Shown here: positions 8,225 through 16,702 of the stretch, one piece after another
How the letters are laid out: each line of letters begins with the position of its first letter
Position numbering within the stretch: the stretch's first letter is position 1
IMG/VR virus record: IMGVR_UViG_3300025767_000165
Coordinates: 1-20,656 of that record
Length of the DNA stretch: 20,656 bases
Strand: one strand, 5' to 3'
Source: a virus
Position numbers and translations under genes: made by a program
The notes under the pieces: model-generated
Databases searched by the model: none
What the model was told of the DNA's origin: nothing
What the model saw: the letters and a program-made list of their open reading frames with translations, nothing else

Positions 8225-11200
8225 TTATGCTGATAGCGCGCCCCTACCGAGCGACAAGGCGGCCTTTTCGTCTTCATCCTCGCGCTCGCCAACCAACATG
8301 TTTGCAATGATGGCAGCTACTACAACGCCGATTGGTGCGCTGTAGAACTTGGCGACTGCAGAACTGTCAGACTGGTTTAACAAGTCTCTGGCGAACTGAG
8401 CTGCTGTTGGGGCTATTTGTTTTAGGCGCTGCGGGTTAGTTAAGTATGCAGCTATAAGGTCAGCAATCAGCTCTTCAGGTGCGTTCATATAAGTACGCTC
8501 GAACTTTTCGAAGGACTTCGCCTCTTTTGGCATCATAACTGCAGCCGCATATCCACCGGTTTCTGCCAGTTCTGCTTGGCTATTTTGAAACACTTGGTAT
8601 GATTCTCTGACACTAAATGATGGGTCTTCAAGACCGTAAGGTGATAAAGCGCCTTGTTTAGATTGGAGTTGTTTTAGCTCTTCAATGAGTTGTCTTGCTT
8701 GAGCGACTGCTGCGCTGTTTAACGATTTAGTCTCAGTGAGCTTCGGTTTCTTTGAAGCAGCATCAATTAGAAAGGCTAGTTGTCCATCCAAAGTGTACGC
8801 ATATTGAGGCTTTGCACCTTTTAAGACCTTTTTACCGCTAGCATCATTCCGATCATCCGAGATCCGCACAATCTTATCCCAGTTTTTATTCGGCTTGCCA
8901 TCTTTATTACGGACATTAAGAGCTGGTCTAGCGCCAAACACATGACCTAGCTCATGAGCTAAGGTAAATATATAGTTTTGTAACGATACTTTACCGCTGA
9001 CCAAGTATGGTGTCTTTGCGCCATCTTTTAAAACGCCAATTTCACCCCAACTATCAGCAGACAACGAATATCTTGGATCAAACGTTGCTAGTAAATTACC
9101 CACGGTGCTACCATCTAGTTTAACACCATGATCAACCAACTGCTGTTTCTGCATGTCGCTGGTGCTTAAATAGATCTTAACGGCTACACCAAGTGCTTCA
9201 GCAATCTTTTTGATTGCCTCGGGGTTTTGAACGCCGTTTTCAAAAGGTGTACCTTTTTGCCCGATTGGGATTGGCTTACCTTTTGATAGGTAATCAGCTA
9301 CGATTTGAGCCTGTTGATCTTGCTCTGAGCTAAGGCCAAGCTCGCGTACCTCTTCGGGGGTTGCTGGTCTCGATCCGAAACTATCAGCTAAACTTTGGAA
9401 GAACCCTTTGCTGGACGCCATGCTGGCGTTGCTGTCACTCGGATCGACTTGTCGATCTCCGCTGCTTCCTCCGGTGACATCTGATCCGGTGCCATCGGTG
9501 TAATCTTTGCTAGACGTGTGAAACCCGCCATCAAAAGGTCGTCCACCTTCTGATCGGTAGAGTTCTGCGAGGGCTTCTTTGTTGACTTCTGGGTTTTCAT
9601 ACCAAGGCCTACTCTTGTTTTTACTAACTTTGAAACTCTTTGGAACTATAACATTATCCTTGATCTTTTTCAGCACTAATTTGCTTTGCTCAGGGGTAAA
9701 TTCGTACATATTCCCAAGGCCATCAGGTAATGCGATATAAGGCATACCATCGCTGTAATAATAGACTGCGCCACTCTCAAAGTTGTCGTATTTACCTTCT
9801 CTCGTATGGATGTTTTGATAGGGATTTTCAATACCAAGAGATTCATTGATGATACCGTTAATTGTACCGTGATCTACCTCTTGAGCTGAGCTGGCAACCC
9901 AGCTTTCCCAATGATAGCGCCCCATCGAGAAATCATCGCCTCGGCCGAGATCTTCGTAGGCCTTTTTAACGACTGGCATCAGATCTCGTTCTAGAGCTTC
10001 GTAGTACATCAGCCCCATTGCATCATCACCGAGTGCTTGAATACCTGAGCCTGTAATTTGCTTCTTATCTACTTTGGTTGTGTCATATAAGTTAAAACCT
10101 TCGAAGCGTCCGTCATCAAACATGTTACGGAACTGCACACGGTCTAGAACCATGACATCATTACGGCCGGCAACTAACAGCATGAAGGATAGCACTTTGT
10201 TATTGATGCCTACCTTATCATTGATCCGGTGAAACTCACGGCGCACATCGCGGCCACTCAGTTCTGGATCAGCGATAAGATCATGCAGATGCTGCATTGG
10301 TGTCTTACCGTTAGCCATTGGCTTTGACATCTTTGTTAAAGTGGTCTTACCGAAACCGTTTAGATTGTGTTTCGCTCCAGATCCGGCGCTAGATGTTGGT
10401 ATCGCCTTTTCTGTCCACTGTAGATATTCCTTTAGATTAAAATTACCATCAGCGGCATCTTGGATGAATTTACCGATGCCTGTCTTATTTCCTCTAGATG
10501 TCACTACATCCAGAAAAGCACCTTCTTGAACAAAGGGTGAAACACCTTTGCTCAGGACGCCCCATAACAGTAACTTACCGGTAATGTCTGGGCGAGCCTG
10601 ACCGCTTTCGTATGCCGATCTAAAATCATCAGCAGCAGCAAACCCATCGGCTGCCATATCCTTTTGGCCTTCAGTTAGTCCACCTATTTGATCAACAATA
10701 ATCTGTGGGTTCTGAGCCATCTCCAACGCACGGTAAGGGATAAGGGGTACGGATCCATCTTTATTGGCATTGCCCATTGCGTCAGCTAAGAAATCCGCAA
10801 AGGCTTCTTTACTCTCTAATGTGTTTGGGTGGTCTGCCAAAAGCTGATCGAGATTAGCTAGCTGCTGATCAATATTACCAATGTTCGAAGATGCTAGGAT
10901 CTTTCTTTTGTGGTCATAGAAGCTATTTGTAGCTGTTCTCAGGAATGGCAGTAACTGATACTGACCGCCAGTGGTGAGGCTAAAGTCATTTGACAGTGTT
11001 TCACCGGCTGGAACTGCTAACATTGCAGATTTGGATGAGCTGGCGACTATGGTTGGCTTAGGTGATACCTTGATTGATTCATATACAGGGTGCTCATGGC
11101 CACCAGATGTAATGATTGTACCGATCTGCTTTCCAAACTCAGGCACACCATACCCAGTCGGGCGTAGGAACGGTTGATTGCCAGCTTTGATGTTGCTGTT

Positions 11201-14032
11201 GTCTCTGGCCAACTGGGTTGGAACATCGAGCTGCAGATCTGTTGTATAGTAATGACGTGTTTTACCGGCTGCTGGATCTCGAGTTACATACGCAACCAAG
11301 CTCTCGGCATCAGCTTCCGTGCGTTTGTTACCTTTTGGCTGCTCTAGCCACCGCCACAACGGTAAACGGTTGCCTTTTTCAGTCACATTGAACTTCTTGT
11401 AGAGGTTCGACTGGAACCGATAGCCTGTGTTTTTATCCGGCAGCGGAGCTGGCTCAGGGTCTACATTCATACCACCAAAACCACCGTCTTGGATGAAAAT
11501 GCGGCCGCCAGCGTATGTGTTATCGGTGACACTTTCATTCTGTGGCATGGCGCGATAGTCACCAAGCGGATTGAATGCACCGGTAACCTTTTCAGTCAGT
11601 TTCGGTGGTACAGGGAAAACACCTTGCCCACTACCCTGCTCAGGAACCGCCATGTTACTAGCCTGCGGCTGCTGCTGCATGACGCGCTCTACATAAGGCA
11701 TCAAGTATTTATCTGCTGCTGCCTTATCATTCATAGATGACCGAGCGCTGTCGTACAGAGACTGAGCCCTGCCGGCTGGATCCACGCCAAGGTTAGCTTG
11801 GTACTCTTGTAGAACTTGTAGTAATAGAGCTCTATCGCGCAGTGACAGGTTCCCATCACCACGGACTGCATCAGCGAGCTGTTTAGCTGTCTCGCGGTTG
11901 TCTTGGATACCACGCACATAGCCCGCGCTGACATCGCGTGGGGCTGCTGCACTAATGCCGGCAGCGCCAACTGGTATTGTGTAGTTCTCAGATAGGCGCG
12001 CAGCGAGCTGCGGGTTTTTTAAGGCAGATAGGTTTGGATCACTATCAACAATGCTTTTGGCAGCCCTGATGAGCTCGGTTAGCCCCTCGATGTCTTTAAC
12101 AGGATCACCCCTGACACTGGCTAACCATTCGTCAGCCGCTTGTGCTAAATCAGGCCGCTGCTGCTTAATTGTTTCCATGAGCTGCATCAATGTGTCACGA
12201 TCGACACCCTCAGTAGCTATGGTCATTACAGCTTCTGGTGAATCCTTGGCCGGCATATCGCCAGCGGCAAACGCTGCCTGACGGCGAGCTGTTTCATTAT
12301 CTTGACGCTGTTGTTCTTTAGCTTGCTGCTGCTCGAGTACTGATGGTTCATCTACGCCAATTAGTGGATCACGCTTCTTGTTATCACGGATGTACTTGGC
12401 AACATTACTGCGGCGTCCTGTCAGCTTATCGATAACGCGGCCAGTACCTTGGGCTGCAAGCTGCCCAGCTAAAGACAGGCCACCAGATGATATAGCTGCA
12501 CCACCTGATAAAATAGGCCTTAAGACGCGCTCAGCGGCGATTGCGCCCCTGTCGTAGCCAATGTTACTGCCAAACGGTGAGAGCTGGTCAGTGATGGCTG
12601 AAACACCACCCTGATAGCCTTTGTTGTGCAGTTTGGTGAGCTCGTTGGTCTTCCGCATTAAATTGATGAGGTCAGCGCCCTCTTTTGTGTCAGCTAGACG
12701 CTGTCCGGTCACTGGATCTACCAAATTGCCTACAGCTTCAAGCTCGCGCTTACCTACTACACTCTTAGTCTTGTTGCGAGCCTCACGGTACGCCAATTTA
12801 GCGAGTGTCTTCTCAATACGCGCCAAAAGCGGGTCGGTATCTTTTATATTCAGGGCATCTTTAAGGATCTGCCGCTGCATCTTCATCTGCTCATCGTAGT
12901 CAGCGTGAAGATCATCAATAACTTGGCGAGCGCCTTTGTTAGATGTCTTATTGAGGTCGTTGAGGTCGTAGCCTTCTTCCTCAGCTCGTGCTTCGATGTC
13001 TGCTGCAAAGCTAGAAGCAGCCTCAGCGTCCTCTGGTAGGGCTGGTTTATTGCTTAATGCGCCTGCAGCACCTTGAACTGGAACTGCAGCGGCTTTCATA
13101 GCGACACCACCGGCACCACCGAGCGCCATTTCATCTACTAGCTTATTGATGACCTCTTCTTTAGTGTACTTACCACCCTGTAGAGCCACACCGGCCATCT
13201 CAGTAGCGCTCTGAGCGCCTTCTGTGGCTGCTTCTCCACCACCGGATTTCAATACGGCTGTCAAGAAACGCCGCGCCATGCCTTTATCTTGCTTGGCTAA
13301 TACCTCAGCGATCTCTTGGGTGCTCATTGTGAGCAGCTTTTCTTTAGGGATTGCTTTACCAACGATGCTGCCCGCACCAATACGGTCTAATAGGCCAACA
13401 ACGGCACCAATTGCGATGTTTTTCTGGGCTGTTGACTGGTCATTGATGTCTAAGCCTTTTTCTTTAGCCTCAGATGTGGCCGATCCGATACCTAAACCGA
13501 TACCAGTAGCTAAAGCACCCCCACCGAGTACGGTTGCAGTGACAGGCGCGCCTAAAGTAGCCGCAATGAAGCCAGTAAGGGCAACTGCAGGGGTTGCAAC
13601 CATGGTCGCTGAGTTCTCTGCGCCTCTGGTCATGATCCAGTCGAGCGTTTTGCCTTTTTCCCAAGCATCGAGAAAGCTCATATCGCCAAGCGATGACTGG
13701 TATCCACCCTCAGCAATATCTTTGTCTTGCTGGCTGACTACATCTTTACCCCAATCAGCTATGCCTTGGTTACCAATCGCATTACCAACGGTCTGCGCTG
13801 CGTAGCCGCCGAGCTTTTGTGCCTGATCGACAGAGTACTCGAATGCATTGTCTCTATTATCTGGCGGGGGTGGCGCTGTAGGTGCTTGTAGTGGCTGCTG
13901 CTGTTGAGCCTGCGGCTGCTGCTGCTTTTGATCTTCTTGTTCGGCAAGCTGCCGCAGAACATCATCGAGATCCTGTTGAGAAATATTATCAGGAACCTCA
14001 TAGACGCTTCCACCTACTTGATACTGAGCCAT
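8225..14032 (-). CDS. Giant internal virion (ejection) protein with C-terminal zincin metallopeptidase motif
   Basis: The 1935-aa protein begins with YQVGGSVYEVPDNISQQDLD, a start common in large polyvalent phage proteins, then a Gln/Pro-rich linker (about residues 31-58). A Gly/Ala/Val-rich hydrophobic region at about 143-187 could insert into membranes. Long helical stretches follow (about 330-830), then a mixed region without a domain I can name (about 850-1500), and a Ser/Asp/Gly linker at about 1501-1545. The C-terminal part holds HELGH at 1693-1697, the zinc-binding HExxH motif, and a PEELIADLIAAYL helix at 1852-1864 that can supply the third ligand Glu. A hydrophobic segment lies near the C-terminus (SAPIGVVVAAIIANMLVG). 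It overlaps the transglycosylase gene by one base (TAATG) and is therefore co-expressed. It probably leaves the virion with the DNA and acts in the cell envelope or cytoplasm; the protease substrate is unknown. Confidence 0.85.
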   Translation of the reverse strand: MAQYQVGGSVYEVPDNISQQDLDDVLRQLAEQEDQKQQQPQAQQQQPLQAPTAPPPPDNRDNAFEYSVDQAQKLGGYAAQTVGNAIGNQGIADWGKDVVSQQDKDIAEGGYQSSLGDMSFLDAWEKGKTLDWIMTRGAENSATMVATPAVALTGFIAATLGAPVTATVLGGGALATGIGLGIGSATSEAKEKGLDINDQSTAQKNIAIGAVVGLLDRIGAGSIVGKAIPKEKLLTMSTQEIAEVLAKQDKGMARRFLTAVLKSGGGEAATEGAQSATEMAGVALQGGKYTKEEVINKLVDEMALGGAGGVAMKAAAVPVQGAAGALSNKPALPEDAEAASSFAADIEARAEEEGYDLNDLNKTSNKGARQVIDDLHADYDEQMKMQRQILKDALNIKDTDPLLARIEKTLAKLAYREARNKTKSVVGKRELEAVGNLVDPVTGQRLADTKEGADLINLMRKTNELTKLHNKGYQGGVSAITDQLSPFGSNIGYDRGAIAAERVLRPILSGGAAISSGGLSLAGQLAAQGTGRVIDKLTGRRSNVAKYIRDNKKRDPLIGVDEPSVLEQQQAKEQQRQDNETARRQAAFAAGDMPAKDSPEAVMTIATEGVDRDTLMQLMETIKQQRPDLAQAADEWLASVRGDPVKDIEGLTELIRAAKSIVDSDPNLSALKNPQLAARLSENYTIPVGAAGISAAAPRDVSAGYVRGIQDNRETAKQLADAVRGDGNLSLRDRALLLQVLQEYQANLGVDPAGRAQSLYDSARSSMNDKAAADKYLMPYVERVMQQQPQASNMAVPEQGSGQGVFPVPPKLTEKVTGAFNPLGDYRAMPQNESVTDNTYAGGRIFIQDGGFGGMNVDPEPAPLPDKNTGYRFQSNLYKKFNVTEKGNRLPLWRWLEQPKGNKRTEADAESLVAYVTRDPAAGKTRHYYTTDLQLDVPTQLARDNSNIKAGNQPFLRPTGYGVPEFGKQIGTIITSGGHEHPVYESIKVSPKPTIVASSSKSAMLAVPAGETLSNDFSLTTGGQYQLLPFLRTATNSFYDHKRKILASSNIGNIDQQLANLDQLLADHPNTLESKEAFADFLADAMGNANKDGSVPLIPYRALEMAQNPQIIVDQIGGLTEGQKDMAADGFAAADDFRSAYESGQARPDITGKLLLWGVLSKGVSPFVQEGAFLDVVTSRGNKTGIGKFIQDAADGNFNLKEYLQWTEKAIPTSSAGSGAKHNLNGFGKTTLTKMSKPMANGKTPMQHLHDLIADPELSGRDVRREFHRINDKVGINNKVLSFMLLVAGRNDVMVLDRVQFRNMFDDGRFEGFNLYDTTKVDKKQITGSGIQALGDDAMGLMYYEALERDLMPVVKKAYEDLGRGDDFSMGRYHWESWVASSAQEVDHGTINGIINESLGIENPYQNIHTREGKYDNFESGAVYYYSDGMPYIALPDGLGNMYEFTPEQSKLVLKKIKDNVIVPKSFKVSKNKSRPWYENPEVNKEALAELYRSEGGRPFDGGFHTSSKDYTDGTGSDVTGGSSGDRQVDPSDSNASMASSKGFFQSLADSFGSRPATPEEVRELGLSSEQDQQAQIVADYLSKGKPIPIGQKGTPFENGVQNPEAIKKIAEALGVAVKIYLSTSDMQKQQLVDHGVKLDGSTVGNLLATFDPRYSLSADSWGEIGVLKDGAKTPYLVSGKVSLQNYIFTLAHELGHVFGARPALNVRNKDGKPNKNWDKIVRISDDRNDASGKKVLKGAKPQYAYTLDGQLAFLIDAASKKPKLTETKSLNSAAVAQARQLIEELKQLQSKQGALSPYGLEDPSFSVRESYQVFQNSQAELAETGGYAAAVMMPKEAKSFEKFERTYMNAPEELIADLIAAYLTNPQRLKQIAPTAAQFARDLLNQSDSSAVAKFYSAPIGVVVAAIIANMLVGEREDEDEKAALSLGRGALSA

Positions 14033-15636
14033 TATGGGTTCAACCTTCTAACTTGAATGTTGTTACCAGATGAGGTCGTGATCGAAGAGCCACCACCAAT
14101 CTGCTGACCCTGCTGCATTAGGCCACCTTGATATTCCTGACGCTGGCGGTCGATTAGCTGAGTGGCTTTCTGGTAGTGATGTTTGACGCGCTGCAAGTTG
14201 TAAATGAACTGCTCGCGGCTCTGAGACTGACGCAGTGAAGCAAGTGATGATTTGAGCAAGGTCAATTCCATCTCTGAAACGTTACCCAATGCGCCACCTG
14301 TTGGGCTCTCATCGCGCATCTTTTGTAGTCTGTCGAAACCGATGTTGGCTTCTACCTGTTCGATCATCGAGGCAACATCATGTGCCGGAGATCCAGCGAC
14401 ATATGACATCGCGTTGCCAAGGAAGCCGGTCACGTTGTTAAATGGGTTCCAGTCATCAGCGGCTGTTTTGACGGCCTGCTCGATTGCGGCGATAGAGCCG
14501 AGGACATTCTCTTGATAGGCACTGCCGCCTGCTGCTGACTTGTTCATCTTGTTCTTGAGCTTGCCAAGCAGTGTATTATCTGACTTGTAGCGATCCATTT
14601 CGTCAGCGCGCTGCTCGTTACGGAATGCGCCGTACTCTTTACCGATTGCGCTCATTGCATCACCGGCACTTGTCATAGCGCCACCCATGCCGGCTGCGCC
14701 CATGCGTACCAGCATTTCACCTGTAGTCGCCCCAGAAGGCCTACGAGGTAGTGAGAATGCCGTCATGCTGCGGGTATCGCCGGTCATAGAAAGAGCGCCG
14801 GCATTGGGGTTACCCCCTAATGGGGCAACATTATCACCATTGTAATAGTCATCCTCTGGGGATGATTTAGTTAAAGCGCCGAATGAAGGATCGAACTGCT
14901 CCATATTTGGATCTGGCACACCATCAATAGTTGCAGCTTGCGCGGGTGTTACAAGGATGCCACCGCCGTCTTTGTAGTCACCTATCTGTGTGGCAGTTGA
15001 AGATCTAGCATCGCTGCCAGCCGCAGCGGCTGCTGTTAGCTGTTCTTGCATTTGGATTGCAGCTAAACGCCGTTTCTCTTGTTCTTGTTGCTTACGGAGC
15101 TCATCTTGCGGAGAAATGCCAAGGTCTTGTTGCTGGGCTAACAAGGCGCGGATCTGGTCTGGTGTCATTTGTTTATCAACCTCTGTTTGGGGCTGTTGTT
15201 GAGCTTTTTGCTGATCATCAATGTATCGAGCAGCTCTCAGGACATACTTTTGTGTGGTTGCCGGCAGATCCTCAAACCTACCGCCGGCTTCTTTCCAACG
15301 TGCAGCTTTAGTCGCACCCATGTTGTAGGCTGCTAGCTTTTCGAATGGTGTCGTGAAGCCGTGATGTTTACTGAAGCGCGTGATGTAATCACTAGCTATG
15401 CCTCTTGCTTTGATTGGATCTTCGAGATCCTTGACATCAAAGTTCGTTGGCATGCCGTAGCCGAGCTTATTTAGGTTGTCAGATCTGATCTGGTATGCAC
15501 CGATTTCAGTAGCGCCACCCAGTGCTCTATTAGCAGCATCTTGTGACAGGTGGCCTGTCTCAGAAAACCTAGCGGCGTCCAGTAGAAGCGGCTGCGGCAC
15601 ATCTGGATTAGATAGTACCCCTTGCCACCACAGCAT
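14032..15636 (-). CDS. Internal virion protein with N-terminal lytic transglycosylase domain
   Basis: Residues 1 to about 140 of this 534-aa protein match the soluble lytic transglycosylase fold: the catalytic Glu is most likely E26 in RFSETGHLS, followed by GGATEIGAYQI (40-50, the usual GAxGxMQ position), the AAYNMGATKAARW motif at 102-114 and LPATTQKYVLRAARYI at 124-139. Such enzymes cut the glycan strand of peptidoglycan, opening a local path for DNA during infection. The rest is Gln-, Ala- and Gly-rich, with helical segments, and probably assembles with the other ejection proteins. The ATG at 15636 is 4 bases after the stop of the previous gene. The domain starts very close to the N-terminus without a signal peptide, as expected for a virion-carried rather than an exported enzyme. 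Confidence 0.85.
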   Translation of the reverse strand: MLWWQGVLSNPDVPQPLLLDAARFSETGHLSQDAANRALGGATEIGAYQIRSDNLNKLGYGMPTNFDVKDLEDPIKARGIASDYITRFSKHHGFTTPFEKLAAYNMGATKAARWKEAGGRFEDLPATTQKYVLRAARYIDDQQKAQQQPQTEVDKQMTPDQIRALLAQQQDLGISPQDELRKQQEQEKRRLAAIQMQEQLTAAAAAGSDARSSTATQIGDYKDGGGILVTPAQAATIDGVPDPNMEQFDPSFGALTKSSPEDDYYNGDNVAPLGGNPNAGALSMTGDTRSMTAFSLPRRPSGATTGEMLVRMGAAGMGGAMTSAGDAMSAIGKEYGAFRNEQRADEMDRYKSDNTLLGKLKNKMNKSAAGGSAYQENVLGSIAAIEQAVKTAADDWNPFNNVTGFLGNAMSYVAGSPAHDVASMIEQVEANIGFDRLQKMRDESPTGGALGNVSEMELTLLKSSLASLRQSQSREQFIYNLQRVKHHYQKATQLIDRQRQEYQGGLMQQGQQIGGGSSITTSSGNNIQVRRLNP

Positions 15637-15640
15637 TGGA

Positions 15641-16702
15641 TTACACTAGGTTCATGGTGTTATAGGGTGTCCACCCCTGCTGTGTGAAACCACGGAATGG
15701 TGAAGCTACAGCCTGCTGCTGTTGCTGTACAAACGGATTAGCATTGAAATAGTCTTTAGCGAAGCCTGCACCCATCATACCACCGCTGAGCGCACCCATC
15801 ATTGGGCTGGGTGTATTGGTGTTTGGCATTGAGCCTGATGTCGGTGCGCCGCCCATGATACCTGACATAAACTTTTGATATGCGTTCATTGCGTAGTCGC
15901 GTTGATCTTCAAAGCCCATCTTGTTTGCATCCATGTTACCTTGGCTATCTTTCTGGAACGCTGATCCAGCATTGGCGGCGTTATTGGCTCCCTGATAGCC
16001 CATCGATAACGCGCTACCATAAGCATTAGCCATGTTTGAGTTTGCGTTGGACATGTTGTTGATCATGTTATTGTTGTTGTTCATGTACCGGTCCATCAGG
16101 TTGTTCTGTAGGTTTGATGACACATCGGCTTTACGATCATTGTAGCCTTCTATGGCTACAGCATCCATGAGAGCTGCACGGCTGTTGTTGATGTTACCGG
16201 TACCTGACGCTGAGCGAAGGCCTGCAGGGAGAGTGTTTCTAGTGAGATTGCGGTAGTCATCGCGCATCGCCGCATCAACCATGGGATTGAGCCTGTTAGG
16301 GTCACTAGCGTAGGCTGCTGCGTCACCGAGTGCATTCTTAGATGCCATGTCGTAGATATTCTGATAGTTACCAGCAAAGCCGCCTGTCTGACCCATGATA
16401 TTGTTGGCAGCATTCATGGCATTCATGCCCATTGTGTTTTGGGCGTTATATGCATCGATCTGCTGTTGGTTCATGCCGGCAAAGCGGTCGCCTGTGTACG
16501 CACCCATGCTGAGGGCGTTATTCAGGGCGTCATATCCGCCTGAGTAGCCTTTAGATAGGTACGGCTTAGCTAGATTGAAGCCTGCCATTGCGGCTGCATT
16601 TTGACGATCTACAGCGCCGGCTTGCTGCTTAGCTGCTTTGTTACCAAAAATGCCACCAACTACCGATGCGCCAAGTTGGGCGGTGAATGGATCCATACCC
16701 AT
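15641..16702 (-). CDS. Small ejection (DNA transfer) protein, Gly/Asn/Ala-rich
   Basis: The 353-aa product starts MGMDPFTAQLGASVVGGIFG, a short amphipathic glycine-zipper-like helix often seen at the start of podovirus ejection proteins, and is then rich in Ala, Asn, Met, Gly and Gln. A run of Asn with Met, MNNNNNMINNMSNANSNMAN, lies at about residues 207-226, and a second Gly/Met-rich segment at about 302-315 (MMGALSGGMMGAG) could enter a membrane. There is no catalytic motif. Its place just before the transglycosylase and the giant protein suggests that the three are packed in the head and ejected together, as with the three ejection proteins of P22-like and T7-like phages. The function is inferred from composition and gene order. 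Confidence 0.7.
   Translation of the reverse strand: MGMDPFTAQLGASVVGGIFGNKAAKQQAGAVDRQNAAAMAGFNLAKPYLSKGYSGGYDALNNALSMGAYTGDRFAGMNQQQIDAYNAQNTMGMNAMNAANNIMGQTGGFAGNYQNIYDMASKNALGDAAAYASDPNRLNPMVDAAMRDDYRNLTRNTLPAGLRSASGTGNINNSRAALMDAVAIEGYNDRKADVSSNLQNNLMDRYMNNNNNMINNMSNANSNMANAYGSALSMGYQGANNAANAGSAFQKDSQGNMDANKMGFEDQRDYAMNAYQKFMSGIMGGAPTSGSMPNTNTPSPMMGALSGGMMGAGFAKDYFNANPFVQQQQQAVASPFRGFTQQGWTPYNTMNLV

Follow-up and report, generated by a model that had tools for sequence, protein, structure and literature searches.

The metagenomic virus contig examined here (IMG/VR record IMGVR_UViG_3300025767_000165; 20,656 bases, the whole of which is called the window) encodes on its minus strand, from position 14032 down to 8225, a giant protein of 1935 residues, probably an ejection protein of the polyvalent type, which very probably carries near its C-terminus a metallopeptidase domain of the zincin type; zinc binding and peptide cutting by this domain are predicted from an invariant set of residues and from a structure model. 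The protein is a mosaic: in closely related phages its ends are near-identical and its central blocks are unrelated. The reading that we favour, at a probability of about one half, is that the zincin would process the protein of which it is part. A previous sequence-only reading, made without database searches, had reported the open reading frame, which is present as claimed; it gave neither the strand nor the exchange of cassettes.

The zincin-like domain

The domain covers residues about 1570-1895 (8348-9325, on the minus strand like all features given below) and is supported by alignment, structure model, fold search and the ratio of nonsynonymous to synonymous substitution rates (dN/dS). 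The motif HELGH (residues 1693-1697, positions 8942-8956), predicted to provide two zinc ligands and the general base, and the downstream PEELIADL (residues 1852-1859, positions 8456-8479) were both found where the sequence-only reading had located them. Any HExxH appeared in 0.8% of shuffles of the giant protein, which makes the motif alone unlikely to arise by chance and not decisive. In an alignment of 15 zincin regions, whose identity to the window ranged from 24 to 93%, only 22 columns were invariant and H1693, E1694, H1697, E1854, and D1858 (H153, E154, H157, E314, and D318 in the numbering of the aligned domain) were among them; the chance of all five falling in invariant columns is about 3e-7, the three HExxH positions having been chosen beforehand as the motif. 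Both histidines and the catalytic glutamate were therefore kept in every one of the homologues aligned. Glu1853 and Glu1854 had both been named as candidates for the remaining ligand, and the two behaved differently: position 1853 was occupied by S, Q, Y, A, or P in relatives whereas Glu1854 never varied, so that Glu1854 is likely the third zinc ligand, with Asp1858 of the same ExxxD stretch (8459-8473) as a predicted accessory residue. The spacing from the last His of HELGH to Glu1854 was 157 residues in the window and 128-167 in relatives. Changes within the domain were mostly synonymous (dN/dS of 0.06-0.25 in five pairs), and the domain is under purifying selection.

A structure model built from the 15 sequences reached a mean predicted local distance difference test score (pLDDT) of 63.7 and a predicted template modelling score of 0.69, with values above 80 in the core; a first model from eight sequences (pLDDT of 43) had been too poor and was not used for the fold search. 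Strands at model residues 76-83, 105-110, and 123-133 are followed by the HExxH helix (144-161) and by a helix (312-325) bearing Glu1854, which is the order of the zincin core, described as a three-stranded sheet, an N-terminal helix, and two C-terminal helices; a helical HExxH with a downstream Glu, conserved in 15 of 15 sequences and placed in helices by the model, corresponds to the gluzincin arrangement. Seven of the 15 best matches in the PDB were metallopeptidases or metal-dependent hydrolases (PPEP-3 twice, at ranks 1 and 2, lethal factor twice, the putative metal-dependent hydrolase 3dl1, K26-DCP, and ACE), none of them individually significant at the threshold of E 0.001. One viral predicted structure, without a name, matched the model at E 6.6e-11. 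Structure prediction and fold search, both proposed in the sequence-only reading, gave a divided answer: the helical placement of HELGH and Glu1854 and the zincin-like order stood, and no PDB match was significant.

Named families were approached at the motif and no further. Pfam MPTase-PolyVal (PF18818) scored 16.7 bits in the 23 residues surrounding the motif (cut-off of 27.5) and Peptidase_M78/IrrE (PF06114) gave 17.8 bits over 19 residues (cut-off of 22); a scan of NCBIfam yielded no match and PADLOC a weak capP match at the motif only. HELGH is followed by V-F-G, and the Asp found three residues after HExxH in the widespread phage clade of polyvalent metallopeptidases is absent. The domain joins no named peptidase family by Pfam, profile, and fold tests. 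On its C-terminal side (residues 1896-1935, positions 8228-8347), all relatives presented the same succession of a hydrophobic helix (residues 1896-1914, 8291-8347; hydropathy of 2.02), an acidic stretch and a conserved end of the GALSA type, which in the window is ALSLGRGALSA (acidic stretch and tail, residues 1915-1935, 8228-8290).

Exchange of central cassettes

Relatives, designated by L numbers, came from scans of IMG/VR. Two of them (L002 and L003) matched the window at 93-94% identity over the zincin region and three (L004-L006) matched the giant protein at 42-46% over most of its length; further ones were L009-L014, L017-L027, L029-L031, L036, and L038. A tblastn search of the whole giant protein against 50,697 phage records gave no match, nor did scans of genome contigs in which the zincin or the central cassette served as query. 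Most relatives were recruited with a zincin query; the constancy of this domain is therefore in part a selection effect, and it may be less universal than it seems. Scans that took the whole protein or the central cassette as query did, however, bring back proteins with a zincin in every case where the C-terminus lay on the contig.

Two exchangeable parts were delimited in the middle of the protein. Block alpha (residues about 795-1000, positions 11033-11650) is cleanly missing in L019, which lacks a block that L017 has, and is substituted by a different block in L027 and L036. The central cassette (residues 1010-1498, 489 residues, positions 9539-11005), defined from BLASTP and BLASTN module tables, is separated from the zincin by a linker recognized by its low-complexity composition (residues 1499-1570, 9323-9538). 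By BLASTP, the cassette of the window was common to L004, L006, and L017-L019, and with L009-L012, L021, L026, L036, and L038 the window aligned in its N-terminal part and its C-terminal 400 residues or so and nowhere else, the centres being unrelated; according to the module tables the cassette is replaced in L009, L010-L012, L021, L026, and L036. The exchange was also evident in DNA. Between L006 and L012, identity was 89% over residues 1-784 and 99.5% over residues 1492-1872, and the centre presented no match except for 75 bases near residue 950; between L017 and L021 the flanks were 94 and 96% identical, with no central match. L021 and L025 displayed the reverse pattern, with centres 94% identical in DNA and zincins that differ apart from a last stretch 99% identical. 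In L036 and L027, whose proteins have otherwise diverged, one block is 87% identical.

Some of the exchanged blocks could be assigned to domains. An ADP-ribosyltransferase domain, ART-PolyVal, was present in L029 at residues 1017-1188 of the same scaffold (43.2 bits vs. a Pfam cut-off of 31.2), DUF7178 in the exchanged blocks of L009 and L014, and the type of centre found in L010, L012, and L021 was distantly related to DUF7178 (hhalign probability of 76%, E 2.3e-5). ART-PolyVal in one relative and DUF7178 in others suggest a place for the family among the polyvalent proteins. The central cassette of the window gave no significant Pfam or PDB match; with DUF7178 (PF23802) in particular, there was no Pfam match and the profile comparison fell below significance.

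A stretch of the window cassette, GINNKVLSFMLLVAGRNDVMVLDRVQFR, recalls HhH-GPD DNA glycosylases, and cassettes of relatives, related to DUF7178, have a similar K..F...(V/L)T.D.W..R pattern. K1279 and D1297 of the window cassette are conserved. A mycobacteriophage match of the DUF7178 cassette is annotated as a glycosylase. No glycosylase was found in the PDB for the central cassettes and profile tests of the window cassette against both cassette groups were not significant; a glycosylase identity is a lead only.

At the borders of the modules, the motif [IV]N[RQ]M occurred on both sides in L021, L026, and L027 only, and in the window only MAVPEQG (residue 794) and LAVPAG (about residue 1005) resemble each other. 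The [IV]N[RQ]M linker could equally well mark a protease site or a seam left by recombination, and it is not claimed as a cleavage site.

N-terminal domain and late operon

The N-terminal domain (residues 53-316, positions 13085-13876) was recognized by homology to tf_51 of Pseudomonas phage tf and to its counterpart in phage JB8. Ten members of the family contributed their first 480 residues to a profile, which was searched without filters and with E-values scaled as for 100,000 sequences. It matched tf_51 at E 1.6e-13, the counterpart in JB8 at 2.9e-8, and phage zth2-2 at 1.3e-7; under the default filters zth2-2 was the sole match. The window protein alone against tf_51 scored 49.3 bits, a value reached by none of 2000 local shuffles. 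Both tf_51 and the JB8 protein hold the same position in a syntenic late operon, and homology and position together assign the giant protein to the family of large late proteins of LUZ24-like phages. Its source is probably a LUZ24-related podovirus. The tf_51 protein is annotated as a virion structural protein, and nine proteins were reported by mass spectrometry in LUZ24 virions, seven of them with close homologues in tf (PMC3517423). From the N-terminal homology and the synteny, which are the basis for predicting transfer into the host with the DNA, we infer that the giant protein is packaged in the virion and delivered. Within the N-terminal domain there are two hydrophobic segments, at residues 144-162 (13547-13603; hydropathy of 1.66) and 206-224 (13361-13417; 1.75).

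The gene upstream (14032-15636) codes for a virion-type protein and shares one base with the giant gene at the junction TAATG. The transglycosylase that had been placed here is supported by an SLT domain that scores 22.5 bits, barely more than its Pfam cut-off of 21.3 bits. This gene is preceded by one of a DNA ejection protein family (phrog_4287; 15641-16702, E 1.7e-8), and terminase and portal genes follow, so that a multidomain protein of 1935 residues stands among virion genes, as polyvalent proteins do. The central proposal of the sequence-only reading, that an ejection-type podovirus protein contains a metallopeptidase domain of the zincin type, is probable on the conserved catalytic set, the zincin-like model, the LUZ24-like N-terminus, and the transglycosylase neighbour taken together.

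Exchange also affects the upstream virion gene, in its lysozyme or transglycosylase part (L006, L009, L011, L012, L017, L021, L029, and L036). The gene starts with SLT in the window, with an SLT-like domain in L009 and with a different, NPGN-containing N-terminal domain in L017 and L021; in L006, L011, L012, L029, and L036 neither type was seen and the zincin was kept. The domains of relatives were judged by eye, that of the window by Pfam.

Proposed processing of the giant protein, alternatives, and known systems

In the favoured mechanism, the conserved N-terminal domain (residues about 50-320) would place the giant protein with the packaged and ejected internal proteins, the exchangeable middle cassettes (about 795-1500) would be effector cargo for the infected cell, and the C-terminal zincin, by means of HELGH, Glu1854, and Asp1858, would cut the long chain at linkers and thereby set the cargo free, whether at assembly or following entry. 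Homologous ends, cassette exchange, and an invariant active site are the grounds in sequence, and the fold comes from the model. The zincin remains at the C-terminus while the cargo changes, which fits a shared releasing function, and the cassette pattern favours processing of the phage's own proteins over the cutting of a host protein. A more tentative extension is that the fixed ejection domain at the N-terminus and the zincin frame a slot for recombined effector blocks, the zincin cutting linkers so as to release whichever cargo is present. Zincins were proposed as processing peptidases of polyvalent proteins by Iyer et al. (2017; PMC5512222). Several observations weigh against self-processing by a zincin. 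A repeated motif sought at module borders led to no common cleavage site; the virion RNA polymerase of phage N4 is packaged unprocessed despite its HExxH domain (PMC5512222; recent structure in PMC12633501); exchange sometimes extends to the zincin end, as between L021 and L025 and as expected of an effector; and the domain presents neither an individually significant PDB match nor a Pfam peptidase match that exceeds the cut-off or extends beyond the motif.

The exchange between L021 and L025, with a centre still 94% identical in DNA, would be accounted for if the zincin were an effector delivered into the host to cut a host protein, for instance a defence component, with the rest of the chain as scaffold and other effectors. 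Zincin versions also diverge strongly between phages (24-43% identity), and PPEP-3 and lethal factor, both of which cut other proteins, are among the closest folds. Iyer et al. list this role as an alternative (PMC5512222). We consider it possible but doubtful, as the same C-terminal place, hydrophobic helix, and tail were found in every full-length relative recovered, whatever the cargo; such fixed placement is more like a common part than cargo, even if recruitment by the zincin query may exaggerate it. Encapsidation of the N4 polymerase requires its HExxH region, and the chain is left uncut (PMC5512222); this suggests instead a domain with a zincin fold that serves structure or packaging and has lost, or never had, proteolytic activity. 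Such a role is unlikely here: all five positions for catalysis and ligands stay unchanged down to an overall identity of 24%, and a purely structural function leaves this unexplained.

Chance motifs in an unrelated helical domain would explain why Pfam metallopeptidase matches are confined to the motif and below cut-off, and why neither the comparison with the N4 domain profile nor Foldseek against the PDB was significant. The invariant set across 15 relatives makes this explanation very improbable, and the model has three strands, the HExxH helix, and a later Glu helix in the order given for the polyvalent zincin (PMC5512222). Still less credit can be given to a protease that opens the cell envelope during ejection, cutting for example peptidoglycan cross-links or envelope proteins. 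The sequence-only reading had offered this role and the zincin gene does adjoin the transglycosylase gene, but some relatives have the transglycosylase domain and others do not, and all of these have the zincin; the two are not linked, and the envelope idea is therefore weak.

Ejected phage proteins with a zincin are already known as a kind. The sequence-only reading had taken a metallopeptidase to be unusual among ejected proteins, and this is not supported: in the survey of Iyer et al. (2017; PMC5512222), no domain was more frequent in the polyvalent proteins of phages and plasmids, among which they count the N4 virion RNA polymerase. Two things are new, as far as checked: in LUZ24-related podoviruses, a divergent group of zincins that no Pfam model covers and that was not found described in the parts of Iyer et al. 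consulted, and a DNA-level record of cassette exchange around a zincin. No test of the processing prediction of Iyer et al. was found in the literature searched, and nature has set up such comparisons in this phage family, where identical ends occur with different cargo and one cargo occurs with different zincins. If self-processing is true, cleavage should take place in the linkers that flank the exchanged blocks, and these blocks would be a source of unknown effectors for the start of infection. If the slot arrangement also holds, phages would have their own equivalent of polymorphic toxin delivery, in which the new zincin group acts as common releasing enzyme.

Among known systems, the zincins of PPEP-3 and anthrax lethal factor resemble the window domain as best, non-significant, fold matches; they differ in having no detectable sequence similarity beyond HExxH, and the window has a long insert between its zinc-binding helices. 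The tf_51 protein (Pseudomonas phage tf, Krylovvirus) and its JB8 counterpart share the homologous N-terminal domain and the late-operon place with the window protein, but are only about 1020-1040 residues long and have no HExxH, zincin, or comparable cassettes. The N4 virion RNA polymerase (gp50), with HExxH in its C1 region, is likewise a giant ejected podovirus protein with a zincin-motif domain; the window protein has no RNA polymerase, and the metallopeptidase domain of N4 aligned with the window zincin profile at the motif alone (hhalign probability of 1.8%, 14 columns). Limnohabitans phage DC33 (L048, 6277-15654) encodes a hypothetical protein of 3125 residues with LPD22 and ART-PolyVal; its taxonomy line is Inoviridae, a classification that looks wrong for a 39-kb genome with a giant protein. 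From the polyvalent proteins (PMC5512222), the window protein departs in a zincin below the MPTase-PolyVal cut-off, without the Asp three residues after HExxH seen in the widespread phage clade of polyvalent metallopeptidases, and in cargo cassettes of its own that match nothing in that domain network. It resembles them in its great length, multidomain composition, late-gene context, strong mosaicism, and predicted transfer with the DNA, in a zincin with the same predicted fold order, and in the ART-PolyVal cargo of a close relative.
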